Shown here: piece by piece, positions 8,491 through 38,933 of the stretch
Layout: the number at the start of each line of letters is the position of its first letter
Position numbering within the stretch: position 1 is the stretch's first letter
Source of the DNA: Actinomycetales bacterium
GTDB taxonomy: Bacteria > Actinomycetota > Actinomycetes > Actinomycetales > Microbacteriaceae
Direction of reading: 5' to 3'
Assembly (NCBI GenBank): GCA_015655415.1
Contig: JAATFB010000022.1
Location: 1-64,000 of the forward strand
Length of the DNA: 64,000 bases
Made by a program: the position numbers and the translations under genes
The notes under the pieces: model-generated
What the model was told of the DNA's origin: nothing
Databases searched by the model: none
The model's input: only the letters and a program-made list of their open reading frames with translations

Positions 8491-9939
8491 GTGGCCCCCG
8501 AAGCGAGCGAGTTCACTCAAGTCTTCCGCGGTTATGACAAGGACGAGGTCGACAGGGCGATCCAGGACCTGCGCCGCGAGCTGATCCAGGCGAACGCGCA
8601 GAACGCCGACTCCGCGAAGGAGATCAAGCGACTCAACGCGCGCATCGACGAGCTGACCGCCGAGATCGAGGAGGTGGGCAGCCCGACCTTCTCCGGGCTC
8701 GGCACGAAGCTGGAGAACACCCTGCGTGTCGCCGAGGAGCAGTCCACCCGGATGATCGCCCAGGCCGACATCGACGCCGAGAAGCTGCGCGCCGCCGTCG
8801 CCGCCGAGACCGAGAGGGCTCGTCGCAGCGCCGAGGAGCAGGCGCAACGGATCATCGCCGAGGCGCACGCCCAGGCCGACACGACGCTTCAGGATGCCGT
8901 CATCGAGGCGAACGAGCTGGTGCACGACGCCACCACGAAGGCCGAGACGACCACGCACGAGGCACAGCGGGAGGCGGCCGCGTTGCGCGGCTCGGTCGCG
9001 ACCGAGGTCGCGGAGCTCAGGGCCACCGCCAGGCGGGAGGCCGCGGCCGTGCTGGCGGAGGCGGAGCACGAGGCCGCCGAGATCACCGCCGCGGCGGCGC
9101 GAGAGGCCGCCGCCGCCCGGGCCGACGCGGACGGGCTCAACCGCGAGGTCGAGGAGACGCGAGCGGCGCTCGCCCGGGAGATCGAGGCACGGCGCGACGA
9201 GGTCGAGGCGGAGCTCGCCGACCGTCGCACGGCCGTGCAGGGCTAGATCGCCCAGGCACAACGGGAGCTCGCCGCCGACACGCGGCAGGCCAGGATCGAC
9301 CTGGCGGACGAGATCGAGCAGGGCCGGGCCGCTCTCGCCCGCGAGCTGGAGCAGCGCAGGGCCGAGGCCGACGCCGAGACGGAGGCGGCGCGCACGGCGT
9401 TCCAGCGCGAGGCAGACGCCGCCCGCAAGGCGCTCGAGGAGGAGCTCGCCGGAATCCGGTCGCAGATCGCGGCCGAGACGGAGCGCCTGGCGCACGCGGC
9501 GGAGACCGCCCGCGTCGAGCTCGAGGTCGAGCTGAAGGCGCGACGCGACGAGTCCGAGCGGGAACATCTCGCCCGCCACCAGGAGGCGGTCGCCCAGACA
9601 CAGCGGTATCTGGATGAGGCCAACGCCGAACTGGCCGAGGTGACCAGGCGCACCAACGAGGTGCGTTCCGAGGGCGAGGCGATCGAGAAGGAGATGCGCT
9701 CCGAGGTGAAGGCTGCCCGCAAGGAGGCCGAGACGGCCGCCCGCGACATCGTGCGCGCCGCCGAGGAGCGCGCGCACGCGATCGTCGAGGATGCCGAGGA
9801 GCGCACCCGCAGGCTCGTCGCCGACGCCGAGGAGCGCCTCTCTCAGATTAGAATCGAGCGCGAGGCCGTGGCCGGCTACTTCGAGAGCCTGCGCAGCGTG
9901 CTGCAGCAGGCGGAAGAGATCACCGCCGACGACGACTGA
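8491..9939 (+). pseudogene. DivIVA-like long coiled-coil protein, interrupted by an in-frame TAG at 9244-9246
   Basis: GTG start 8491: VAPEASEFTQVFRGYDKDEVDRAIQDLRREL...RRTAVQG*IAQAQRELAADTRQARIDLADEIEQG...RIEREAVAGYFESLRSVLQQAEEI; the same frame continues to the stop at 9939. Confidence 0.82.
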
Positions 9940-24328: not shown

Positions 24329-24970
24329 TCACACCCCTCTCCTGAGATAGAGGGCGGCACCAAGCTGCTCGGCGCTGGGACGATCGTCGCCCGCGACGTC
24401 GGCGATCGTCCATGCCAGCCGGAGCGAGCGGTCGTATCCGCGCATCGTGAGGGCTCCGCGTTCCAATGCGCGGTCGAGCACCGCCGTGCTTCCGCGCGGG
24501 AGGCCTCTGGCCTGCTCGCGGAGCCAGGGGCCGGGCAGCTGCGCGTTGATGCGCCAGGGCGTGCCGCAGAGCCGCCGCGCGGCGACCTGACGCGCCCGGA
24601 CGACGATCGCGCGCGCCTCCGCGGTGCTGGTGCGAGCCGCTGTGGCTCCGATGGCCAGCTGTGCGGGCGTGATCCGCCGCACCGACAGCCTGATGTCGAT
24701 CCTGTCCAGCAGGGGGCCGGATATCTTCGCCAGGTACCGACGACGCACGGACGGGGCGCACGTGCACTCCGCGTCGAGCACGCCGTACTGCCCGCACGGG
24801 CACGGGTTGGCGGCCATGATCAGCTGGAACCTGCCGGGAAAGGTCGCACTCGCATTCGCGCGATGGATGCGGATCTCACCCGACTCCAGAGGCTGTCGCA
24901 ACACGTCGAGGACCGCCGAGGGGAACTCGGGCGCCTCCTCAAGGAAAAGCACACCAAGAGCCGGGCTCAC
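24329..24970 (-). pseudogene. comM: ComM (Mg-chelatase-like AAA ATPase) C-terminal fragment, separated from its N-terminal half by the inserted element
   Basis: GVLFLEEAPEFPSAVLDVLRQPLESGEIRIHRANASATFPGRFQLIMAANPCPCGQYG...RRRYLAKISGPLLDRIDIRLSVRR; its first codons derive from the element. Confidence 0.93.
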
Positions 24971-25235
24971 TCCCTACCTTTCACGGCCTCCGAGCCGTCT
25001 GGGACCCCAGATCAGGCCCGCATCTCTGCCAGTTCGCTGGCTCCGAAATCGTGTCTGGAAAGAACTTCCTTGCATTGGTCCAGTGCCCCGGATCGCACCA
25101 CGACCCTTGGAAGAGACCGAAACGCCCGACCGGGCTGCCGCTCTCGACCAGGCGACTAGACCTCGGGCCGGCGATCGTCAGGGAGCCCTGTGGACAACTT
25201 CTGCAGCGATTTCCCGATGAGGAGATACTCGTGCG

Positions 25236-25457
25236 ATGGACCTCGATGATGACTTCGACCCAATGGAACCTTTGTTGCACGCCGCGGCCGGACCTATCAC
25301 GATCCGCGGCGATGTCATTCGTTGGCTTGAAGAATCTAGCTCCTGGCCGGACCTGATGGACGGCGCGGAGAACGTCGTACCTGAAGCGCCGTCGGGTCGG
25401 AGTCACCACGACAATGTGTTCGATCTCGATACCTACCGGCGACGCCGTCCGAGCTGA
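25236..25457 (+). CDS. Small acidic protein of unknown function in the element
   Basis: ATG 25236 with GAGGAG upstream; MDLDDDFDPMEPLLHAAAGPITIRGDVIRWLEESSSWPDLMDGAENVVPEAPSGRSHHDNVFDLDTYRRRRPS. Confidence 0.5.
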   Translation: MDLDDDFDPMEPLLHAAAGPITIRGDVIRWLEESSSWPDLMDGAENVVPEAPSGRSHHDNVFDLDTYRRRRPS

Positions 25458-25478
25458 TTGCCGGGCCTGAACGATTCG

Positions 25479-28187
25479 TCAGCTACTTGCGATTGGTGCG
25501 AGAGCGCGGCGCCTCGACAGGAGCGCGACATCCTTTGAGATGACGTGGCGTTGGAGGTGAGCGAGAACGGCCTGCTGGGTCTCCGGAGTCCAGAAGATCT
25601 GGAGGCGTTCTCGAGCTCTTGTGACCGCGGTGTAGAAAATGGCGTGCGAGATGTCCTCTTCGTTGGCGTCGGTGATCACGATCTTGACCGAGTCGTACTC
25701 GAGGCCCTGTGCCTTGTGAATCGACACGGCGTATGCGATCTGGAATGGCACGTTCGTGTTGAGCGAGTCGTCGTCGGCGTCACTCGTGTCACGCTCGTAG
25801 ACGTTGAATCGGACTGTTGCGTCTCCGAGCCATTCAAGCTCTTCGCCATCTACGTCGAACGCACTGATGGTGCGGTCGAGTTCGACGTCGAACTGCACCC
25901 GGTCGGGATATGGCTGGATCCCGACGATCTTGCCTTTCAGGTTGTTGTAGATGACCCGCCCGAATCGTTCGGTCTCGTTGAAGAGGATGGGGTCGCCCAC
26001 TTTGTAGGTCGTGACGCCCCAGGTGATGCCATCCCCGGGGTTGCTGCTTTGAAGGAATCGGTTGATGTTGTTGATGCCGTAGAGGCCGTCATAGTTCAGG
26101 CAGAGGATGATCTCGTCCTCGCGTTGCGGCTCGAACAGCGACTCGTCGAGTGTTGTGGAGTAGCCGTTGTGTGCGATGACCTCGGCGATGTCGTCCTCGA
26201 GGTTGCGCACTTTGTCCCAGAACGCGAGGAGTGCCTGGTTCTTCGTGCGAAATGGTGTGGTGAGTTCGAACACCGAGTCCTTCGGGATGAAGGAGCGGAT
26301 TGCGTTGAACCAGTTGCCGAACTGGATCGACTCGATCTGGTAGACATCGCCGACGAGCACGAGCAGTTTGAATGAGGTCTTGTCCAGCACCTTGATGAGG
26401 TCGGCGTTGCTGACCGTGCTGCACTCGTCGATGACCAATAGGTCGTATTCCGGGTCTGTGGCCATGCGGTAGATCTGGCTGCTGATCGTTCGAAAGGTGG
26501 AGTCCTGGGCGGTGACTCGACGCTTGAGGTTGTCGACTGCCGGGTTGGTGTGTGCCAGGAAGAGCTTTTGCTTGTCGTTGAAGTAGCTGGCGATGTGGTT
26601 GACCATGGTCGACTTGCCCGTGCCGGCCGCACCGTAGATCAGGGCGATGCGGGACTGGTCGAAGAGACTCTTCAGCGCGTCGCGCTTGGCGTCGTCGTCG
26701 ATGCCGCGGGGCACCTCGTCCAGCCACCGCTGGACGGCCGTGGAGTATCCGTCGATGCCAGACGACGCGGATTCCTGCAGCTTTTCGATGATCGTGACGG
26801 TGTCATTTTCGTAGCCGCGGATGAAGACGTGGCCCATGTCCTTTTCAAGGCCCCGCCAGGCTCTGTGTTTGTAGTAGAGCGCCGCGTTGTAGGTAGCAAT
26901 CAGCTGATCGAGGTCGCCCAGCTCCTCGAGGTCCTCTACGGGCGTGTAGAGGATGCCGTGGCTCTCGACGTTGTTCTTCACACGCCGGGCGAGCAGCTCA
27001 TGGGCGCGCCCCGTCACGTCGAGGCTCTCGACCAGGTCCCAGTACCTGGGATTGTGAGCTCGGAGCGACGTGCAGAACGGCATGGTGTCGAACGGGATGC
27101 ACCCGTAGTCCAGCCTCAGGTTGGAGAGACGCTCACACCCGTCTCGGTTGTACTGCGGCTTGAGGAACTGGTTGTGCATCGCCAGCATGAGGTAGCGAAT
27201 GACGTTGTATCCCGGAGCCTTCCTCCGGATGATCTGACGCGCCTGATCCAACGCAGGAAAGATCTGGGGCCTAGTGACTCTGGCCGTCCCGGCTTCCCGC
27301 ACTTCGGCATATCGTTCGTCCGACATTTCCATCAGATCGAGCAGGCTGCCCCCGCTCGTGGTGAGTCCCTGCATGACATATCGATACTCGGGGGTTCCGG
27401 TTCGCACGTCGGTGGACAAGCCGAAGAGGCGAGCGAAGTTGTCGAACTCACAGGGGCGAACGGAGACCTCCCAGTCCCGAACGATGGTGATCGGCATACT
27501 GCGCCCGAGCACGTTGATCGAGTCGCCCTGCAGCGTCAGCATTGCCGCGTACTTGTCGGTGAGGTCGATGTCGGTGAAGCCGATGATGCGATCGAACTTG
27601 CTGACCTTGTTGACTGCGCGGTAGAAGGTGACCTCGTAGTAAATCCGGCCGCCGACGAAGAACGGCCGCGTCTTGTGGATGTAGTACCGCCGACCTCCTC
27701 CCTCTTGTGAGGCCAGTCGGCCCGTCGCTTGTATCCGCTCGGCGATCTTCTCGTGATATTCGCGGAGCGACGGGTCGAGGTCGATCGGGAAGGACTCCAG
27801 GTTGGCGAGCACGTCGATTCCGCATACATCGCGAAGTAGCGTGCGCACACGCAGGAAGTATTCGTAGTACTTCAGCATCAGACGTTCTGAGGCGTCGCCG
27901 TCCATGGTGTAATGCGAGGCACTGATCTGAATGAGCCTGTGGAACCGGTGCAGAAAGTTGATCTGCTTGTTGGCGGAGCCGACCCAAGCCAAGGCAGGTT
28001 TCGTCGCCTCGTAGGTGAACTCGATCGCTCCATCAGCGCTTTGAAGGCGAACCGCGACCGCCTCGATCAGGTTGCGTGCCTGCGAGAGGAGGTTTTGCGA
28101 CAAGAGCGCGCGGTCGTCCCCCAGCGCGGCAATGTTGTCACAGATCGCCTGATCGGAATTCCGTATCTGCTCATCGACGGTGGGCAC
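25479..28187 (-). CDS. Superfamily 1 (RecD/UvrD-like) helicase with ~520-aa N-terminal extension
   Basis: Walker A IALIYGAAGTGKSTMVNHIA; Walker B YDLLVIDECSTVSNADLI; motif III VLVGDVYQIESI; motif V/VI AYAVSIHKAQGLEYDSVKIVITD...FYTAVTRARERLQIFW. Confidence 0.85.
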   Translation of the reverse strand: MPTVDEQIRNSDQAICDNIAALGDDRALLSQNLLSQARNLIEAVAVRLQSADGAIEFTYEATKPALAWVGSANKQINFLHRFHRLIQISASHYTMDGDASERLMLKYYEYFLRVRTLLRDVCGIDVLANLESFPIDLDPSLREYHEKIAERIQATGRLASQEGGGRRYYIHKTRPFFVGGRIYYEVTFYRAVNKVSKFDRIIGFTDIDLTDKYAAMLTLQGDSINVLGRSMPITIVRDWEVSVRPCEFDNFARLFGLSTDVRTGTPEYRYVMQGLTTSGGSLLDLMEMSDERYAEVREAGTARVTRPQIFPALDQARQIIRRKAPGYNVIRYLMLAMHNQFLKPQYNRDGCERLSNLRLDYGCIPFDTMPFCTSLRAHNPRYWDLVESLDVTGRAHELLARRVKNNVESHGILYTPVEDLEELGDLDQLIATYNAALYYKHRAWRGLEKDMGHVFIRGYENDTVTIIEKLQESASSGIDGYSTAVQRWLDEVPRGIDDDAKRDALKSLFDQSRIALIYGAAGTGKSTMVNHIASYFNDKQKLFLAHTNPAVDNLKRRVTAQDSTFRTISSQIYRMATDPEYDLLVIDECSTVSNADLIKVLDKTSFKLLVLVGDVYQIESIQFGNWFNAIRSFIPKDSVFELTTPFRTKNQALLAFWDKVRNLEDDIAEVIAHNGYSTTLDESLFEPQREDEIILCLNYDGLYGINNINRFLQSSNPGDGITWGVTTYKVGDPILFNETERFGRVIYNNLKGKIVGIQPYPDRVQFDVELDRTISAFDVDGEELEWLGDATVRFNVYERDTSDADDDSLNTNVPFQIAYAVSIHKAQGLEYDSVKIVITDANEEDISHAIFYTAVTRARERLQIFWTPETQQAVLAHLQRHVISKDVALLSRRRALAPIASS

Positions 28188-28353
28188 GTGGGCTCCACCC
28201 GTCAGAACACGACCACCTATCAGGACATGAGCAGCATCTCTCGACGCCTGACACGCTCCATTTCATAACTGCATTCTGCCGCTCACTAGTCACTGTCGGA
28301 GGCTTCTGGGATCGTTGCTGCGAGTCGCCCCACCACGACAAAAGGAGCTCGGC

Positions 28354-29082
28354 ATGTTTGAGCGTGCGCGGGAATACCCCAGAGCGGTGACAGGCAATGG
28401 CGCGAACGACCCCGAAGGGTCTCAGCGGGCCGCCATCGAGTGGATTGCCGCGCAGCAGAAGGCGGTCGGGGGTCAGGTACTACTGTTCGTGCCTCAGAAG
28501 AGCACCCTGAATCACTCGGGCGATCTCATCGCCCAGCTCGCGAAAGTGCCCGGCGTCGCAGTCGGGACATGGCGAGGTTACGTATCGGGATGGTCAGGCG
28601 GGCCGGTACTCGCTGCCTGGCCGTCACGCGAGAAGCTCGCCGAGATCGCAGATGATCGCCGAACCCGAGCGCTTTGCGTCATTCCTTGGGTCGACGAGGA
28701 CACTACTCCGTGGGAACAGGCGTCACAGCCGGAACTACTCGCCGGCGCGCTCGCCAAGACCAGCGCACCAAGTCTGGATCCGGTTGTCATCGTCGGGCTC
28801 ACCCACCTGACCCGGATGGTCAATCACGCCAACAACCTCGCTGGCGCGCTCGACCACAGAGATGCCGTAGCGGTCCTCCGGGTGCTGCACCGCGGAAGGT
28901 ACGCGCTTCCCGCTGATGAGGTGTACGCCTGGGCGCTCGCAAACGGGTGGCCCGCGCGCGGAGCGGAGCGACTGCGGGAAATGGCGGAAAAGATCGATGC
29001 CGGCCGAACCGTTCAGATGAAGGGCCCGTCTCCGTTGCGCCCCGAGGTACTGAGCATGTGGAAAGCCGAGGCTAACCAGTAG
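28354..29082 (+). CDS. Hypothetical protein (242 aa) divergent from the helicase
   Basis: ATG 28354 preceded by AAAGGAG; MFERAREYPRAVTGNGANDPEGSQRAAIEWIAAQQKAVGGQVLLFVPQKSTLNHSGDLIAQLAKVPGVAVGTWRGYVSGWSGGPVLAAWP...; no recognised catalytic motif. Confidence 0.75.
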   Translation: MFERAREYPRAVTGNGANDPEGSQRAAIEWIAAQQKAVGGQVLLFVPQKSTLNHSGDLIAQLAKVPGVAVGTWRGYVSGWSGGPVLAAWPSREKLAEIADDRRTRALCVIPWVDEDTTPWEQASQPELLAGALAKTSAPSLDPVVIVGLTHLTRMVNHANNLAGALDHRDAVAVLRVLHRGRYALPADEVYAWALANGWPARGAERLREMAEKIDAGRTVQMKGPSPLRPEVLSMWKAEANQ

Positions 29083-29276
29083 CCGAATACCGCCAGGCCC
29101 CGATGGTCAACAAAGCACTCATCGCGCGGGCTTTGCTCGGGCCTGACTTTCGGCACGACTGATAGCTGAGAAGGCCTTGGCGATTCGTGTGCTGCGTCGT
29201 CAGGGGTCGGTGTGAGACTCAAGAAAGCGCAAGGCTCGCCGCACTGGTGACAGAGAGATGACGGGAGGCTAGGCCG

Positions 29277-30377
29277 ATGGCTCACCGCTCACTCAATTCG
29301 AGCGATCGCGAATACTTCCTCCCTCCGCTCATCTGGCCGACCGAGTTGAGAATGCCGGCGCGCCCCCCACTGCTGATTCACCTCGATCTCGCGCAATGGA
29401 TCCGCTTTGGCCGGGTTGTCCAAGGACAGGGTGAGCCCGCATACGCCGACCTCTTGGAGGCCCTCCGACAGGCGATTCAAGCGGGACAAGTCCGCATCGT
29501 CCTGACCGGTGCGCAATACAGCGAGGTCACGAAGATCAAGGATCCGGCTCAGCGTCGCGCGTTGGCTTCAGTCATCGAGGAGCTGACGGACTTCACCTAT
29601 CTCGTTAGCCATGTCGATGTCCTGCGGCTAGAACTCCAGACCACCCTCGACAACCTGACGGGAACACGCGGCCTCGGCTGGACGCCGACCGATTTGTTAG
29701 GTAAGTCAGCGTTAAACGTTGTGGGAAGAGTCGGCGGCTTGCAGATCATTCAAGAAGGCGAGGACGTGACCGCCAAGATGCTTGCCGCAGACCCTTCGTG
29801 GGCTGAGCGCCTAGCGACGATGAATCGGATGGCTGAGCGAATGCTGCTCCAAGGACCCGACGACCAGGAGGCGGCCGAGATACGCGCGGGCGGCTACCAG
29901 CCAGAGCTGGTTGAGCAGCAGATCGTCGACAACGCAGCCCTGGAGGCCGCGTGGTCGACGCAGATCGAGAAGTACCGCGGAACCTACGTCATGCGCGACC
30001 TGGTGATCGCTCGCTACCTCAACTTGGAGCTCATGGAAATGCTCGTGCATGAGCTGATGGCGCGCGGCATCCAGATCGACGACATCTTCACGACGCCCGA
30101 GGCAGGCACTCGATTCCTGATGAGCATGCCGTCCAGCGCGGTCACCGTGTCGATGAAGGCGCAATACCACCAAGACCCCAATCGACGCTGGTCCGCGAAC
30201 GATCTCTATGACATTGATGCTCTGGCGCTTGCGCTCCCATACTGCGACATCGTCTTCGCTGACGCCTCAGCTCAGGACGCCGCACTGCGACGCGGCCTCG
30301 ACACGCACTTCGACACCATGCTTCCTCGCCGCCCCAAAGAACTGACGTCGCTGCTGCGAACACTGGCGACCGTATGA
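29277..30377 (+). CDS. PIN-like domain protein (putative ribonuclease)
   Basis: ATG 29277 after GGGAGG. Ordered acidic residues: N-terminal LLIHLDLAQWI, then AQYSEVTKI, then C-terminal NDLYDIDALALALPYCDIVFADASAQDAALRR...LDTHFDTMLPRRPKELTSLL. Confidence 0.6.
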   Translation: MAHRSLNSSDREYFLPPLIWPTELRMPARPPLLIHLDLAQWIRFGRVVQGQGEPAYADLLEALRQAIQAGQVRIVLTGAQYSEVTKIKDPAQRRALASVIEELTDFTYLVSHVDVLRLELQTTLDNLTGTRGLGWTPTDLLGKSALNVVGRVGGLQIIQEGEDVTAKMLAADPSWAERLATMNRMAERMLLQGPDDQEAAEIRAGGYQPELVEQQIVDNAALEAAWSTQIEKYRGTYVMRDLVIARYLNLELMEMLVHELMARGIQIDDIFTTPEAGTRFLMSMPSSAVTVSMKAQYHQDPNRRWSANDLYDIDALALALPYCDIVFADASAQDAALRRGLDTHFDTMLPRRPKELTSLLRTLATV

Positions 30378-31975
30378 GCAACTCGAACCCCGACGCCACG
30401 GATCCGCTTGATCCGCAAGAAGCCGATGCGCTGCTTGCGGATTTCCTGGCGCGCGCGGTGGCAATCCCGACCATTCCGAATGCCGCGGCTGAGCTTGACC
30501 AACTCGAACAGGAGATACTCGCTTCGCAGCTGAACTACCCCCACATCGTGCTCGCACTGTTCACCGTGAGCTCGGTGACCGTCAACATCGGCGACGACCT
30601 CGACGACGAGGCGCTCGTCACGACAGGGCTGGAAAGAGCGACAGCCCTGCTGTCCGCGACTCCTGACCTCGTTCTGATCTCCCAGCTGCTGCAGAACATC
30701 GCGAACGCAGAGTCGATCCTCTTCAGACTCGAAGCCAAGGAGTCAGCCGGAGGTGCCACGCCGGATCTGATTGAAAGCGACGTCCGCTTCCGCAGCGATT
30801 CACATGTCGTGACCGCACGTCGACTTTGGTCGTTCGTCTCACGTCCGCCGTCGGCGACACCCGACTCCGTGCGCTCACGCGCACTCTGCAACCTCGCCAA
30901 TGAACTGGATCTCGCAGGCCGCTGGGTCGAGGCATACTCGGCCTACGCGGACGCGCTCGAGGCAGAGCCCACAAACGGAAACGCCGCCGGCAACCGGGCA
31001 ATGCTCCTTCTTCAGCGCCTCAATGCCAGTCCACAGCAGGCCGGCCACATCGCCGCGGTGTATGAGAAGTGGGCCCGAAGGGCGAAAGAGCTTCGGGCCG
31101 AGACCGTCGCGATCGCCGGCGAGCACGCCGCGCAACTCTGGGATGCGCTGCCCCTCAGCGATGAGCCGGTGCTCGGGCACCTCAGCCACGACGGCGACCT
31201 TGACGACCCGTACCAGAGTTGGATCGTCGAGCATCGGCTTGCGCTGGTCCCGACCGTGGAGGGCCTGGGCTCGGACAGTTCACGCTGGGACACCGCCGAC
31301 ATCCTCGCCGCGGCAGCTGACAACGACGAAGGGCTGGCGCCGCGGATCTTTGCCGCAATGAATGTCCTGAAGGCAGAGTTCATCGTGGCCCGCCGCCTGG
31401 CCTTCCGAGGAGAGGTGATGACCTTCACCGAAGACGGGATGCAACACCCCGAAGACACGGGAGCCTATGGAGCAACCGGCGACGGCGCTGTCTACGGCGA
31501 GGGCCCGGCCACCCTGCTTCTCGCACAACGCAGTGCTCTCGATCTGCTCGACAAGATCGCGGTGACCGCGAACGAGCATTTCAAGACCTGTATCCAGCCT
31601 CAGAAGGTCGACTTCGCGTCCTTCTGGCGCGACACGAAGACACATGTTCTCCGACCGGAGGTCAGCACGATGGCTGGTCGACGCGCTCGACTTGCCCTCG
31701 CCGAGCTTCAGCGGGATCTCGCATCCGATGCGCTCTATCCAAACGCTCGCCTTCTTCGCAATGCCGGCACACACCGACTTGTCCACGGCACCTTAGGCGA
31801 GCCGACCGGCCCGACGAAAGAAACATTCAGCACCATCGACCTCATTGACCTGCAGGAGTCGACGATCGAAGCGCTATGGGTGGCGCGCGCCGCGTTCCTC
31901 TACCTCATCGACCTCATCGACGCCGAAACGCCAGAGCTTGATGGCCTGATGGCCGAGCTGCACTCTCAAGCCTGA
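30374..31975 (+). CDS. LA2681-like HEPN domain protein with TPR-like region (putative ribonuclease)
   Basis: TPR-like ALCNLANELDLAGRWVEAYSAYADALEAEPTNGNAAGNRAMLLL; C-terminal helical region with RNAGTHRLVH matching the HEPN R-x4-6-H motif. ATG overlaps the PIN-like stop (ATGA, 30374-30377). Confidence 0.65.
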   Translation: MSNSNPDATDPLDPQEADALLADFLARAVAIPTIPNAAAELDQLEQEILASQLNYPHIVLALFTVSSVTVNIGDDLDDEALVTTGLERATALLSATPDLVLISQLLQNIANAESILFRLEAKESAGGATPDLIESDVRFRSDSHVVTARRLWSFVSRPPSATPDSVRSRALCNLANELDLAGRWVEAYSAYADALEAEPTNGNAAGNRAMLLLQRLNASPQQAGHIAAVYEKWARRAKELRAETVAIAGEHAAQLWDALPLSDEPVLGHLSHDGDLDDPYQSWIVEHRLALVPTVEGLGSDSSRWDTADILAAAADNDEGLAPRIFAAMNVLKAEFIVARRLAFRGEVMTFTEDGMQHPEDTGAYGATGDGAVYGEGPATLLLAQRSALDLLDKIAVTANEHFKTCIQPQKVDFASFWRDTKTHVLRPEVSTMAGRRARLALAELQRDLASDALYPNARLLRNAGTHRLVHGTLGEPTGPTKETFSTIDLIDLQESTIEALWVARAAFLYLIDLIDAETPELDGLMAELHSQA

Positions 31976-32086
31976 GGTCTTTGGTTGCGGACCGGTGTGG
32001 AGAGCAAGTGACCCTCCCAGCCGCGCCTCACATCAACGGCCCCGTCCCCTTGCCACGATGATGGGTGCCCAGACCATCAACGCTCG

Positions 32087-35000
32087 CTAGACCCCGAGTC
32101 CGCGACGACGGGCTTCAGCACGTTGATCCTCCTGAAGGGCACTGCTTTCATACCCGTCAGCCAAACGTCTGAGAAGCGCGGCCGTTCGATCGTCGGCAGC
32201 TAGGGCAGCAGCTTGTTCGCGGTACTTTTTCGCGAGTTCACGCTCGGCGACGCCGCCATCCATGCTTCGCCACTCCACGCCTCGGTCGTTGTAAATGCCG
32301 CGCCCTATGCCTTGCTCAAGTGCTTCAATACGGAGGTCGTTGACGAGCTGGCGGATTGCTGTTGGTGGCCACTTGCCGTCGACCGGATCGTTGCCTGCCC
32401 GGCTTAGTAGCTCTCCGACGGCCCCCCAGGCGAGCGCCTTCTTGTTGTCGTCCCAATCGGCGATGCGCGTCGATACTTCATCGGACCAATCTCTGAGTAT
32501 CGACTCGTCAATCACTCCCGAGTCCTGCTCGCCGGGAATTGTTCTCCAGGATCGAAGAACCTTCCAGCCGCGTGAGACGATCTCGCCGTCTTGGCCCATG
32601 CGCGCCTCGAGCACTTCGACGAAACGTGCTGGCGATGTCGCCATCGAGCGGTGCAGCTCAAGCTGCCGACGGTCGTTTAGCGCGGGGAGGAACGCCCACT
32701 CAAGAAGGATGAGGCGATCCTGCATGGATGCGTCGCCCTGCAGTCTTATGGTCAGCCGATCGATTGAATCTCCCTCGGCCTTTGTACCTCCCGCCTGACC
32801 CGCCAGAAGGCTCTCCAGGGCATCAGCGATGACCTCGTTCGCGACTCCCTCGCCATGAACGTCCAGGGTTGTGACTGCCAACCCGGCCTGGCCACGCTCG
32901 ACGAGAGTTCGTGCGATCGCTTCGATTGTGGGCGCGCCTGCTTGCACAGACCACGGGTTAAATCCCGCCCAGAATGCTGTTTGGACGTCCTCGGTCTCCT
33001 GTCCGAGCTTTTCGGTTGCGCTTTCGATCGCCAAGAACTGGAAAAGGTGGGCTCTCGTCTTTGCGTTTGCGTTGGGCGTGGCGTCTAGTAGACGGACGGG
33101 CAAATCAGCATCGTCCCTGACGCGCCGGGCGAGGTAGCTCATGGCAAACCTTGATCGAGATGGCCCGGCACCGAGCAACGTCACAAGGGTTGTGTCATTC
33201 AGCGGAGTTCCTCGAGAAGCGAGTGCCCAGGTCAGAGTGCTCACGTCGGGGAGCTGTTCGGCGAACTCGAGGACCGACTCGAAACCCGAGCCCGATTCGA
33301 TCTCGTCGATGGCGGCTACCCGCAGTCGCTGTACTTCGGCGGTCTGGGCGGCCCAGTCTTCACCTCGTGGGAAGTCAATCAGCCGTGGGTATCCCGTGTG
33401 GAACAGCCATTCGTTCTTGTGTCGGGGATCAGTCGGGGTTAGGTCGTCCAAGAGTGCTCGGAGCGGCAAGAGATCCTCAGCGGGTAGCGACCAGTCGGCA
33501 GCGTCGAACTCGGTGTGGTCGGCGATCAGACTTCTCAGCTCTTCGTAGGGGACTTGCGTCTCCGCGTCGGACCATCCCGCCACGAGTTCGGCCAGCCGTT
33601 CGAGGACAAGCGCCCGCCCGTCCGAGCTGAGCTGCGGAAGCCAGCCGATCGCGGCCTTGGCATGCTCCGGGCTGGTTGCCCTGGGCAGTAGCACTGACAC
33701 AAGCTCAAACCTTCGGTCTGCCAGCTCCCCAGATGTCATGCCAGTAAGCCGGGGGCCCCACTGACGATAACGGGGTCCAGGTTCGATGACTCCGAAGCCG
33801 TCGTCGTCCACAAGGCCAGCGAAGGCATCCCAACTCGCGCCGCCATCGCTGTCAAGCTGCTCGGCAATCACTGCAAGTCTTCGGTCCCAGGGAACGGACG
33901 TGTTCCAGGTCACCGGCGACAGTGCTTTTCGGAGAGAGTCAAGCGGCCGATTGGACCAGGTCCCGCCTGGATCGATCGCGTGAAGTCGAAGCAAGACCGA
34001 CACCACCCGAGGAAGCGCAGCGGTCGACCATGAAAGGACATCGGCGGCGTGCACCAACTCGAGATGGGGCGACGAAGGCCCGAAGGTCACCGCCCCGCGT
34101 TCGCGCGAGTCCGTAAAGATCTGTTCGGGTGGCATTGCGGCGACGGCGTCTAGATAGTCGAGAACGGCGTCCGGTGCCGCTTCAGCAAGCAGCGACAGCG
34201 AGAACGGTCGTCCGACAAGAGCGGAGACTTCGAGCGGTTGAGCAGGAAGACCGAGTGCGTTGCGCACCACTCGAGCTGCGCTCGCGGAGGTCTTTGTTGC
34301 GGTGCGGGCGACATCTTCGTCGGCGCCCATGAGTGCCAGGACCATGCCGATGCCATCCGCGATGTCCCGCGAGTGCTGAGGTCCTACACCTTGTATCTGC
34401 GCCCGGATGCGTTCCGTGCCGTCCAGTTCGGCCAGCGGGTTTGCGGTTCCCAACACGGTTGCGACCTCGGACTCAAACACTGCGAGGTCCTCATCCGTGA
34501 TCGAATGCGACAGCAACCGCCAGGTGTCCGTCGGACTGACCAAATATCGATGCGCCTCAAACTCTGCGGTGGGTCGACCTTCGTTCTTCAGAATCGACGC
34601 CCAGGTTTCTGATGCATCAGCAGCATCTCCCCCGAGAAGCGCGGCGACAAATCGTCGATCACCTTCAAACTCGGCATTCCAACGAGCGACAAGTGCAAGT
34701 CGTCGCTCTCGCGCGTCTAGATCACGTGCTGCCCAGGAAGGCGTGAACAACGCCGGCTGAATTGCAAGCTCTCGGCGCAGGGTGGTGATGTCTCGACGTG
34801 CCAAGTAGCCCAATTCGTAAGCCCGATGAAACTCGACTCCTTGCGTTTCCAGAGCCTTTGCGGCGCCCTCGCTGTCGGTCGCCGGAATCTCGAGGGTGGA
34901 CATGTGGGCAGGATGCGTGAACACAAATACATGCGCGAGCGAGTTGTCGGGTATTGCGGTGACCCAAGAAGCGTTCGGGATCAGCGCCACGAGTGGACGT

Positions 35001-35791
35001 CCTGAGCTGAGGGCGGCGACGAACGCCGCCTCCTGTTCGAAAATGACCAGGCGTGCTGGGAGCGCCGAGAAGCGATCGTTATCAAGCGCGCGTTGCGCCA
35101 CCGCAGCAAACGTCGCTACCGCCGCCTCCCACTGCAATCCACCGCCACCAACGCTGGTAACTCCGGGGCTTGCCGAAAGGTCCGCGATCTGATCAACGAG
35201 CTCCTCTCGACCAGCAAGCAACACGGTGGCATCAAGCGAAACGTTCGTACTCTCGAGCCAGCGTTTCCACCACGCGGACCAGTGGATTTGACCGACTATC
35301 GGGATTCCCATGACCGACCGCATCCACGCCGAGGTGCCCGGCGCGATTGCGAGCCAACTGACGAGGCTTTCCACATTCAGCCCACGAACGGACTTCCAGA
35401 TCCCATCAGTCGTGTGCTTGTCGAACTCCTTACGCTTCGTCCACTTCTGCGTTGAGACAGCACGGTAGTGCACGTCCTTGCGGAGCATTCCCAAGGGGCC
35501 GTCGGTCCGCTTGAGGTAGTCGGACTCTGCCTTTCCATGGGCGCCTGTCTGCACTGAGGTTTCCCAGACCAACACGCCCTTGGGTACATAAAGCGATTCA
35601 CCGTTGGCCTCCACGACGAGGTCGAACCCCCCGGTACTCACTCCCGTCCCCGCGGGTGCGTCGAGAAAGACGATCTCTTCACCCGTCTCGACAATCAGGC
35701 GCGCGATCAATTCGGGAAGAACACCGTCGGAGTCGACAGCTTCAGTGCTCCAGCGAAGGATGTCATCACGAGAGATGGACTCCCAGGTCAT
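32087..35791 (-). CDS. 1234-aa protein with N-terminal PD-(D/E)xK-like nuclease motif and large uncharacterised body
   Basis: GGAGG RBS; N-terminus GTGVSTGGFDLVVEANGESLYVPKGVLVWETSVQTGAHGKAESDYLKRT; no canonical GxxxxGK[ST] found in the translation. Confidence 0.6.
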   Translation of the reverse strand: MTWESISRDDILRWSTEAVDSDGVLPELIARLIVETGEEIVFLDAPAGTGVSTGGFDLVVEANGESLYVPKGVLVWETSVQTGAHGKAESDYLKRTDGPLGMLRKDVHYRAVSTQKWTKRKEFDKHTTDGIWKSVRGLNVESLVSWLAIAPGTSAWMRSVMGIPIVGQIHWSAWWKRWLESTNVSLDATVLLAGREELVDQIADLSASPGVTSVGGGGLQWEAAVATFAAVAQRALDNDRFSALPARLVIFEQEAAFVAALSSGRPLVALIPNASWVTAIPDNSLAHVFVFTHPAHMSTLEIPATDSEGAAKALETQGVEFHRAYELGYLARRDITTLRRELAIQPALFTPSWAARDLDARERRLALVARWNAEFEGDRRFVAALLGGDAADASETWASILKNEGRPTAEFEAHRYLVSPTDTWRLLSHSITDEDLAVFESEVATVLGTANPLAELDGTERIRAQIQGVGPQHSRDIADGIGMVLALMGADEDVARTATKTSASAARVVRNALGLPAQPLEVSALVGRPFSLSLLAEAAPDAVLDYLDAVAAMPPEQIFTDSRERGAVTFGPSSPHLELVHAADVLSWSTAALPRVVSVLLRLHAIDPGGTWSNRPLDSLRKALSPVTWNTSVPWDRRLAVIAEQLDSDGGASWDAFAGLVDDDGFGVIEPGPRYRQWGPRLTGMTSGELADRRFELVSVLLPRATSPEHAKAAIGWLPQLSSDGRALVLERLAELVAGWSDAETQVPYEELRSLIADHTEFDAADWSLPAEDLLPLRALLDDLTPTDPRHKNEWLFHTGYPRLIDFPRGEDWAAQTAEVQRLRVAAIDEIESGSGFESVLEFAEQLPDVSTLTWALASRGTPLNDTTLVTLLGAGPSRSRFAMSYLARRVRDDADLPVRLLDATPNANAKTRAHLFQFLAIESATEKLGQETEDVQTAFWAGFNPWSVQAGAPTIEAIARTLVERGQAGLAVTTLDVHGEGVANEVIADALESLLAGQAGGTKAEGDSIDRLTIRLQGDASMQDRLILLEWAFLPALNDRRQLELHRSMATSPARFVEVLEARMGQDGEIVSRGWKVLRSWRTIPGEQDSGVIDESILRDWSDEVSTRIADWDDNKKALAWGAVGELLSRAGNDPVDGKWPPTAIRQLVNDLRIEALEQGIGRGIYNDRGVEWRSMDGGVAERELAKKYREQAAALAADDRTAALLRRLADGYESSALQEDQRAEARRRGLGV

Positions 35792-35883
35792 GTGTCCTCC
35801 TCAGTGTGCTCGCTCAGCACACGCTATCGCTCCAGCACCGGATGGTCGCCACCCTTCAGGTGTGCGACCTGCAGAGCGACCTG

Positions 35884-35936
35884 TGTTCCGTAAATCGGGT
35901 GTTTCACACGATGTGTAACGCCCGATTTACGGAACA
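35884..35936. promoter_or_regulatory. 53-bp near-perfect palindrome, possible operator, recombination or structured site
   Basis: TGTTCCGTAAATCGGG (35884-35899) is the exact reverse complement of CCCGATTTACGGAACA (35921-35936); the 21-nt centre TGTTTCACACGATGTGTAACG is itself nearly palindromic. Confidence 0.85.
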
Positions 35937-35953
35937 GGCGCCCCGCCGAGCCG

Positions 35954-37600
35954 TCACCATGTTGAACGCACGACAAGGCGTGCCTCGGTAGGAGCCTTTC
36001 CGGGCAGCGCGTCGATGCGGCGCACGAGGTGCCGCAGATACCGGCGCCGCTCGAGGATGTCCAGCTCTGCCCACCGGTCGGGCAGGGCCAGCTGCGGGCC
36101 GATCGGAGTGGACTGGAGCTCGATGGTGTCCAGTTCGCGCTCCAGCGTCTCGATACGCGCCTGAACATCGCCGATCATGCTCAACAGCACCTGCACCATC
36201 GCGCCCTGGAACCCGGCGGTGCCCTGCTTGTCGACCAGCGCTGTGCGCTCGGCGCGGGCGTGGCGCAGCTGCTCCATCACCGCGTCGAAGTCGGGCCGAC
36301 TACCGGCCGCGGCACGGCGCTGGCGGGCGGTCTCGAGCGCTTCCGGGGTGATCTGCGAGAAGAACCAGCCGAGCACGAACGCCTCGCCCTTGACCGCGTC
36401 GATCGTGCACCCACCCGAGCAGTTCCCCGGCCCCCGCAGCCGGTTGGCCATGCACCGGTAGGCGTGGGCGGGATACGTGGTGCCGTCCGGCGCCCTGCGG
36501 GTCTTGCTGTGGCCGTAAAGCCGCGCACCGCACTGGCAGTAGAGCAGCCCCGTCAGCAGCCATTGGTGCGTCCCCCAGGGGCGGATGGTGCGATTGTTGC
36601 TCGCCTCCGACAGCAGGTGCCGCACCCGCAGCCAGGTAGTCCAGTCACACGCCGGCTCCTGCGCGATCACCGGCTCACCCTGAGCGTCGCGGGCGACATA
36701 GTCCAGCAGGTCGATCTTCACCCCGCGTCGGTGCTCAGGGACCTGGAACATCCGATACCCGACCATCCGCGGCGAGCACAGCGAACGGTAGATCGTCGCC
36801 TCGTACACGTAGGCGCCGTCCGCCGTGGTGATGCCGTAGGCGTCCTTCCAGTGCCGGGCGATCTGCCCCAGGCTGCGCCCCTGCAGCACCATGTCCACCG
36901 CGTCCTTCAGCGCCTGGTGCTCCACCGGGTGCGGGACCAGCCGGATCCCGGTGCGCCCGAACTCGTCGGTCACCCGCGGTCCCGGCTGCCACCCGAACGG
37001 ACGGGTGCCGCCGTGATGGAACCCGGCCTCGGCCAGATGCCGCTTCGCCGCCAGCTGCCGCTCGCTCATCGAGTCCGTCTCGACCTCGGCCAGCAGCGCC
37101 TTGATCCCGGTCACGATCTTCGCGCCCGCCGTAGCAGTGTTCAGCTCCTCCGCCGAGTCCTGATGCGAGACGAGGTAGACGCTCGCGCGCTGGCACTCCG
37201 CGATCCACTCGATGCACTTCGTCGCGATGCGATTGGTGCGGTCCAGCTTCCAGAACGCGATCGCCTTCACCGTGCCGGACGCGATGCCCTCGTTCAGCTG
37301 CTTCCAGCCCTTGCGGCTGCGCGCGGCCGAAGAGCTCGCGGAGTCGTTGTCGATGAACTCCCCCATCACCGTCCACCCACCCTCGGCCGCCAGCTTCCGC
37401 ACCAGGTCGAGACGCTGCCGCTCGATCGCGTCGGCCTTGTCCTTGTGATACTTCGAGAGCCGCAGGTAGAGATAGATCGGCCGAGTACCCGGAAGGGGCT
37501 CACTCGGCCCCGTCCTGGCATAGGCCGGATAGACAACCGCCCGCATCGGACGGCTCGGTCGAGCATTACGACCTGGGATCTTCTGTTCGTTGGACTGCAT
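35954..37600 (-). CDS. Large serine recombinase / site-specific integrase
   Basis: N-terminal IYLYLRLSKYHKDKADAIERQRLDLVRKL, WKLDRTNR; zinc-ribbon LLYCQCGARLYGHSKTRR...YRCMANRLRGPGNCSGG; C-terminal coiled coil. Confidence 0.93.
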   Translation of the reverse strand: MQSNEQKIPGRNARPSRPMRAVVYPAYARTGPSEPLPGTRPIYLYLRLSKYHKDKADAIERQRLDLVRKLAAEGGWTVMGEFIDNDSASSSAARSRKGWKQLNEGIASGTVKAIAFWKLDRTNRIATKCIEWIAECQRASVYLVSHQDSAEELNTATAGAKIVTGIKALLAEVETDSMSERQLAAKRHLAEAGFHHGGTRPFGWQPGPRVTDEFGRTGIRLVPHPVEHQALKDAVDMVLQGRSLGQIARHWKDAYGITTADGAYVYEATIYRSLCSPRMVGYRMFQVPEHRRGVKIDLLDYVARDAQGEPVIAQEPACDWTTWLRVRHLLSEASNNRTIRPWGTHQWLLTGLLYCQCGARLYGHSKTRRAPDGTTYPAHAYRCMANRLRGPGNCSGGCTIDAVKGEAFVLGWFFSQITPEALETARQRRAAAGSRPDFDAVMEQLRHARAERTALVDKQGTAGFQGAMVQVLLSMIGDVQARIETLERELDTIELQSTPIGPQLALPDRWAELDILERRRYLRHLVRRIDALPGKAPTEARLVVRSTW

Positions 37601-37620
37601 TTGGAACCTCCTTTAGGAAC

Positions 37621-38568
37621 CTAGGTGTGAGGCCCGGATGGTGCCTCGTCCAGGAACAGCACGCCGTGCGAGGCGCGCACGGCCGCACCGGGACGGATCT
37701 GCCCGCTGCCGCCCCCGATGACGGCGGCAGCGGTCGCGGTGTGGTGGGGCGCCTCGAAGGGAGGCCTCGTCACCAGATCGGTGACGACGTGACCGGTCAG
37801 CGACCTGATCGCCGTCGCCTCCAGTGACGCGTCGGCGTCGAGGTCGGGAAGCAGCCCGGGAAGGCGTTCGGCCAGCATCGTCTTGCCGGCACCCGGAGGA
37901 CCGAGCAGGAACATGTGATGGCCCCCGGCGGCGGCGAGGATGAGGGCGTCCACGGCCTCCTCGTTGCCGACGACATCGGCCAGGTCCAGTGGACGCCCAG
38001 GGTCGCTCTCCCGCTCCCCGGCCGCCGGCCAGGCCTCCACGGGCACGGGGTCGAGCTCGGCTCCGTGCCGGATGGCTGCCTCGCGCAGCGAGGACACCGC
38101 CACGATCTCCGATCCCGGCACGAGGCGCGCCTCCTGCGCATTCGCAGCCGGCACCATGACCCGCGCGTGACCGGCGCGCACCGCCCCTATCACCGATGGC
38201 AGCACCCCCGGGGTGGGACGGACCCGCCCGTCGAGACCGAGCTCGCCGACGTGCACCATCGACGCCACCGACTCGGCCGGCACATCCCCGGCGGCGGCCA
38301 GCGCCGCCAGGGCGATCGCCAGATCGAATCCGCCGCCGTGCTTGGGCAGCGCGGCCGGAGACAGGCTCACCGTGAGCTTGCGCGAGGTCACCGGCAGCCC
38401 GGAGTTCGAGGCGGCGGCCCGCACCCGGCCCCGGGACTCGCCGAGCGCGGCATCCGGCAGCCCGATGACCCAGAAGCCGGGAAGACCCGGGGAGATGTCG
38501 GCCTCCACGTCGACGACGCTCGGCGTGAGCCCGACCAGAGCCACCGCGCTCGTCCGTGCGACGGCCAT
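37621..38568 (-). pseudogene. comM: ComM N-terminal fragment, truncated at the Walker B region by the inserted element
   Basis: MAVARTSAVALVGLTPSVVDVEADISPGLPGFWVIGLPDAALGESRGRVRAAASNSG...MFLLGPPGAGKTMLAERLPGLLP...ASHGVLFLDEAP|SGPHT*. Confidence 0.95.
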
Positions 38569-38933
38569 CAGCACACCCCCGTGAGGTGTTCGATCACGAC
38601 GTCGCGGTCCGATACTCCGGGCGGAGCCAGCACGGCGATCGCGTCGATCCGCAACGACCGGGGAGCGGAGTCGGACTCCTGGTACCAGAGCGAAGCCAGA
38701 CGGCGCAGCCGCGCGACCTTCGCCGGGGTTATCGCCTCGAACGGATGGCCGAACGCGGTCGGCGAGCGCGTCTTCACCTCCACGGCGACGATCGCTCCCT
38801 CGCGTTCCGCGACGATGTCGATCTCGCCCTGTGCACAACGCCAGTTGCGCGCCCTGATGCGGTAGCCGCGAGCGACCAGGTACCGCGCCGCGAGCCCCTC
38901 ACCGCGCTTTCCCAGCTCGTCCTTCTTCGCCAT
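38568..38933 (-). CDS. YraN family (UPF0102) putative endonuclease
   Basis: GKRGEGLAARYLVARGYRIRARNWRCAQGEIDIVAEREGAIVAVEVKTRS; overlaps the comM start. Confidence 0.93.
   Translation of the reverse strand: MAKKDELGKRGEGLAARYLVARGYRIRARNWRCAQGEIDIVAEREGAIVAVEVKTRSPTAFGHPFEAITPAKVARLRRLASLWYQESDSAPRSLRIDAIAVLAPPGVSDRDVVIEHLTGVC

Follow-up and report, generated by a model that had tools for sequence, protein, structure and literature searches.

Predicted split-PIN and TPR-HEPN ribonucleases as neighbouring candidate solo effectors in a serine-recombinase island of Microbacteriaceae

Results

The two genes studied here lie in a lower-GC island of ~12.7 kb that is inserted in yifB/comM (24950..37645, unstranded, ends approximate) within the window, by which we mean the whole 64,000-nucleotide stretch of DNA that was analysed. 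The island is mostly 60–63% GC, against about 68–74% outside, and interrupts that gene within the Walker B motif (LFLDEAP); the N-terminal half of the split gene is found at 37621..38838 and the C-terminal half at 24329..24970, both on the minus strand. On the side of the N-terminal half the island encodes a large serine recombinase (35954..37600, minus strand). Further minus-strand genes encode a 902-aa candidate defence protein with a superfamily 1 helicase domain (25479..28187), which matches the PADLOC candidate family PDC-S53 over its full length with 1366 bits, and a 1234-aa protein (32087..35791) with a full-length match to phrog_18693, of unassigned function, and no match in Pfam or the PDB. 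On the plus strand, the gene for a 255-aa protein without an assigned function (28315..29082) lies 194 nt before that of a predicted split-PIN nuclease of 366 aa (29277..30377), which is followed by the gene for a TPR-HEPN protein of 533 aa (30374..31975). Distant relatives of the 255-aa protein occur on 25 plasmids, some of them haloarchaeal and annotated as DUF1889. The PIN and HEPN genes are cargo of this mobile serine-recombinase island.

Three species of the genus have both halves of yifB next to each other, without interruption. A fourth species of the same genus (G004, locus L117) carries a different island at this yifB site, with other cargo and a related, 50% identical recombinase, and the site is therefore one of recurrent integration, at which the cargo changes. 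In another genome (G486), a 67% identical recombinase borders the N-terminal half of yifB (L118) and another lies near the C-terminal half (L119), the two being about 72 kb apart.

The stop codon of the PIN gene and the start codon of the HEPN gene overlap in the plus-strand sequence ATGA (30374..30377); the lengths and positions of both reading frames and of this overlap had been given exactly by an earlier sequence-only reading of the locus. Such an overlap is ordinary. Rough gene calls in the window and in fourteen segments of family genomes gave 133 co-directional neighbours, of which 18 allow a 4-bp NTGA overlap. A Shine-Dalgarno sequence, GGGAGG (29263..29268, plus strand), stands 8 nt before the PIN start, and none is matched in the 20 nt upstream of the HEPN start codon, which makes reinitiation after the PIN stop plausible. 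The missing HEPN signal hints at a real dependence of this gene on the PIN gene, and to that extent counts against two effectors that act on their own. Promoter and terminator scans gave nothing above shuffled sequences.

The 366-aa protein is likely, although not proven, to contain a PIN domain that a helical insert interrupts. Its acidic active-site residues stand in PIN order in an alignment of 23 members, in which D37 (29385-29387), E83 (29523-29525) and D312 do not vary and conservation at D314 reaches at least 90% (the codons of the latter two within 30210-30218); D329 (30261-30263) is a further listed acidic residue, and all are encoded on the plus strand. In an AlphaFold model with a mean pLDDT of 89.3 the elements follow a PIN-like order: a strand at residues 32-36, helices, a strand at 72-76, helices, the inserted helices (about residues 130-284, ~150 residues), a helix at 307-322 and a strand at 325-327. 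We compared the PIN profile, with the insert removed, to a profile of VapC PIN domains drawn from the searched genomes, and obtained a score of 30.4 with an E-value of 1.4e-4 as a single comparison, against 15.3 for the best of 100 column shuffles and 16.2 for the reversed profile. The alignment pairs D37 and E83 with VapC residues and spans only the N-terminal half of the protein.

Could the protein instead adopt a non-PIN fold with similarly placed acidic residues, leaving the HEPN protein as the sole RNase of the pair? Such a fold would be consistent with the partial extent of the VapC alignment and with the library searches, in which the protein found no identifying match in Pfam, NCBIfam, PADLOC, PHROG or the PDB sequences, no Pfam family at E-values up to 1, and no match of any Pfam PIN family to the 23 aligned members. 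Foldseek likewise returned nothing significant for the model in the PDB or BFVD. However, the order of strands and helices and the positions of the acidic residues agree with PIN, the VapC score is twice that of the best of 100 shuffles, and the weak, non-significant Foldseek matches include RNA-free RNase P, Exo1 and FEN1, all of the PIN fold. We therefore consider a non-PIN fold unlikely. The PIN-like placement of acidic residues that had been read from the sequence is thus right in outline, in conserved residues, profile match and modelled topology, but it is backed neither by a family library nor by a significant structural match.

The 533-aa protein is an LA2681-type HEPN protein by Pfam, with a HEPN_LA2681 domain (PF18733, residues 322-517, 31337..31924, plus strand) matched at an E-value of 7.9e-29 and with 100.9 bits, where the curated cut-off is 27. 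The R462-x4-H467 motif (RNAGTHR; 31757-31774, plus strand) is intact, and R462 and H467 are invariant in five aligned relatives, among them distant ones from Rhodococcus, Paraburkholderia and Alteromonas, which bears out the earlier assignment to this type; the protein is a predicted RNase. The TPR-like block that had also been proposed is found at residues 169-214 (30878..31015, plus strand), by weak matches below the Pfam cut-offs. An AlphaFold model built from two sequences (pLDDT 42) was too poor for use. One relative of the HEPN protein is found among viral contigs and none in the phage records searched. Although the LA2681-type HEPN family has been known since 2013, we found no paper that tests the function of a member.

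Is the pair of genes conserved? Using a pattern built from three PIN sequences, we found 25 relatives of the PIN protein, 27–75% identical, in GTDB species genomes, and none of these 25 loci has a HEPN gene within 8 kb or up to the end of the contig, including the closest (L012, 75% identical). Conversely, no PIN neighbour is present at the HEPN loci examined, which lie on plasmids of Rhodococcus, Paraburkholderia and Alteromonas, in five family genomes and on one viral contig. Among 399 family genomes the PIN protein has matches in 11 and the HEPN protein in 6, and the only genome common to both is the source of the queries, that of the window itself (G000). A search of the 25 PIN-bearing genomes with PF18733 also found nothing, which is weak evidence, as the silence extends to all of them; the same query matched G000 and G907.

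These results bear on the proposal of the sequence-only reading that the two genes may form a two-nuclease defence or toxin module, for which a lack of conserved linkage in other genomes had been named as one of two refuting outcomes. In such a module the PIN and HEPN proteins would cooperate, one RNase for instance activating or completing the other, and translational coupling would set their ratio, as the ATGA overlap and the Shine-Dalgarno sequence before the first gene only might suggest. NTGA overlaps are common, however, and the genes are unlinked at all PIN and HEPN loci examined and do not co-occur in the family genomes beyond the query genome. For the genomes searched, the module is therefore refuted as a conserved unit, and we regard cooperation of this kind as improbable; rarer linked copies may exist in metagenomes. 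What stands is that two different predicted RNases are adjacent, probably co-expressed and located in a defence-type island. None of the relatives found in other bacteria has the two genes side by side, so the locus looks like a pair of defence candidates of one gene each. A toxin-antitoxin arrangement, with one partner held in check by the other as when a PIN-like protein without activity restrains the HEPN RNase, is very unlikely and was rejected: the overlap is of toxin-antitoxin style, but each gene is found on its own elsewhere, and both proteins keep predicted catalytic residues that a mere antitoxin would not need.

The predicted split-PIN family is unnamed and missing from the libraries searched. 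Its members come mainly from Actinomycetota and Acidobacteriota, and in the relatives the gene usually stands by itself. Within the 399 family genomes the window protein matches ten other genomes at E-values up to 0.001, some of them weakly; two further relatives sit on plasmids, and none is found among viral contigs or in the phage records searched. Several relatives adjoin known defence genes, neighbours that were hand-picked by eye and hence give no rate. A gene for a Hypoth_Ymh protein lies downstream of the PIN relative in L032 (9172-10005), with a like gene in L035 (9173-10006), and the mycobacterial relatives in L023 and L029 share a downstream 258-aa protein of no assigned function (9159-9935 in each). 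In L062 (6459-8105), a PIN relative of 64% identity lies some 10 bp downstream of an NYN gene, and in L012 (8001-10063) a convergent neighbour of the PIN relative has a partial PIN_8 match. The three closest known members of the PIN clade thus have different RNase-like neighbours, HEPN in the window, NYN in L062 and a partial PIN_8 in L012, a pattern that is not seen beside more distant relatives. Possibly this clade works with exchangeable second ribonucleases, to which we give a slim chance.

Discussion

We consider it probable that the PIN and HEPN genes encode two independent solo RNase effectors, which stand side by side in the island, would here be co-expressed and are probably directed against phages. 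We favour this reading because each gene is found on its own in every relative examined, because the HEPN domain and its motif are intact, and because the PIN-like model, the conserved residues and the profile match support a PIN nuclease. Further support comes from the island itself, which carries a recombinase and the PDC-S53 candidate, by the changing cargo at the same site in G004 and by the hand-picked PIN relatives near defence genes.

What would the two proteins do in the cell? The N- and C-terminal parts of the PIN protein would form a metal-dependent RNase active site around the helical insert, and the insert probably senses a trigger or keeps the enzyme inactive, as has been suggested for the PIN defence protein DS-3. 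The TPR-HEPN protein is predicted to be a dimeric, metal-independent RNase. Its N-terminal repeats probably bind a trigger, upon which the protein would dimerise and cut RNA in the manner of the HEPN protein Tha. Each of the two most likely acts alone, cutting RNA after phage infection. The genes are probably on one transcript, on which ribosomes that terminate at the PIN stop would reinitiate at the HEPN start, and their partnership would be recent and local.

The closest described analogues are DS-3 for the split PIN domain and Tha for the solo HEPN domain. VapC toxins (PF01850) share the PIN active-site pattern with the window protein, but the VapC domains that it matched span about 120 aa and have no insert, whereas the window protein has one and lacks a Pfam PIN match. 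VapC toxins normally come with a VapB antitoxin. A small antitoxin gene of the VapBC type is absent beside the PIN gene, whose upstream neighbour encodes 255 aa and whose downstream neighbour is the 533-aa HEPN gene. DS-3, from the DefensePredictor work, is an E. coli defence system that consists of a single PIN protein; its split PIN domain is needed for phage defence, and it has no antitoxin (PMC13092281). Compared by layout, not by sequence, the window protein resembles it as a single protein with predicted PIN parts divided between the N and C terminus; the phage phenotype of DS-3 has been measured (PMC13092281), whereas for the window protein we infer a defence role.

For the second gene, LA2681 HEPN proteins have been described with a conserved motif, TPR fusions and operons with TPR genes (Anantharaman et al. 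2013, PMC3710099). The window protein shares the intact R-x4-H motif and a fused TPR, but it adjoins a PIN gene, and none is reported for the operons of that survey. The Staphylococcus prophage protein Tha is a solo HEPN RNase that acts against phages and is activated by phage tail proteins (PMC11087260). Like the window protein it is a single protein with a C-terminal HEPN domain, an R-N-x3-H motif and no antitoxin partner; it differs in that it has 301 aa and no reported TPR block, is prophage-encoded and, as far as tested, does not belong to the LA2681 family. PIN and HEPN domains are also used together in the eukaryotic Swt1, in which a PIN domain is fused to a HEPN domain whose dyad is probably inactive (PMC3710099). 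Swt1 is one fused protein, however, and there is no evidence of kinship with the window pair.

In conclusion, one candidate two-nuclease system is lost and two better-posed candidates are gained, the split-PIN family and the solo TPR-HEPN proteins. In this bacterial family, yifB/comM appears to receive serine-recombinase islands recurrently, with changing cargo, and is a place in which to seek more defence genes.
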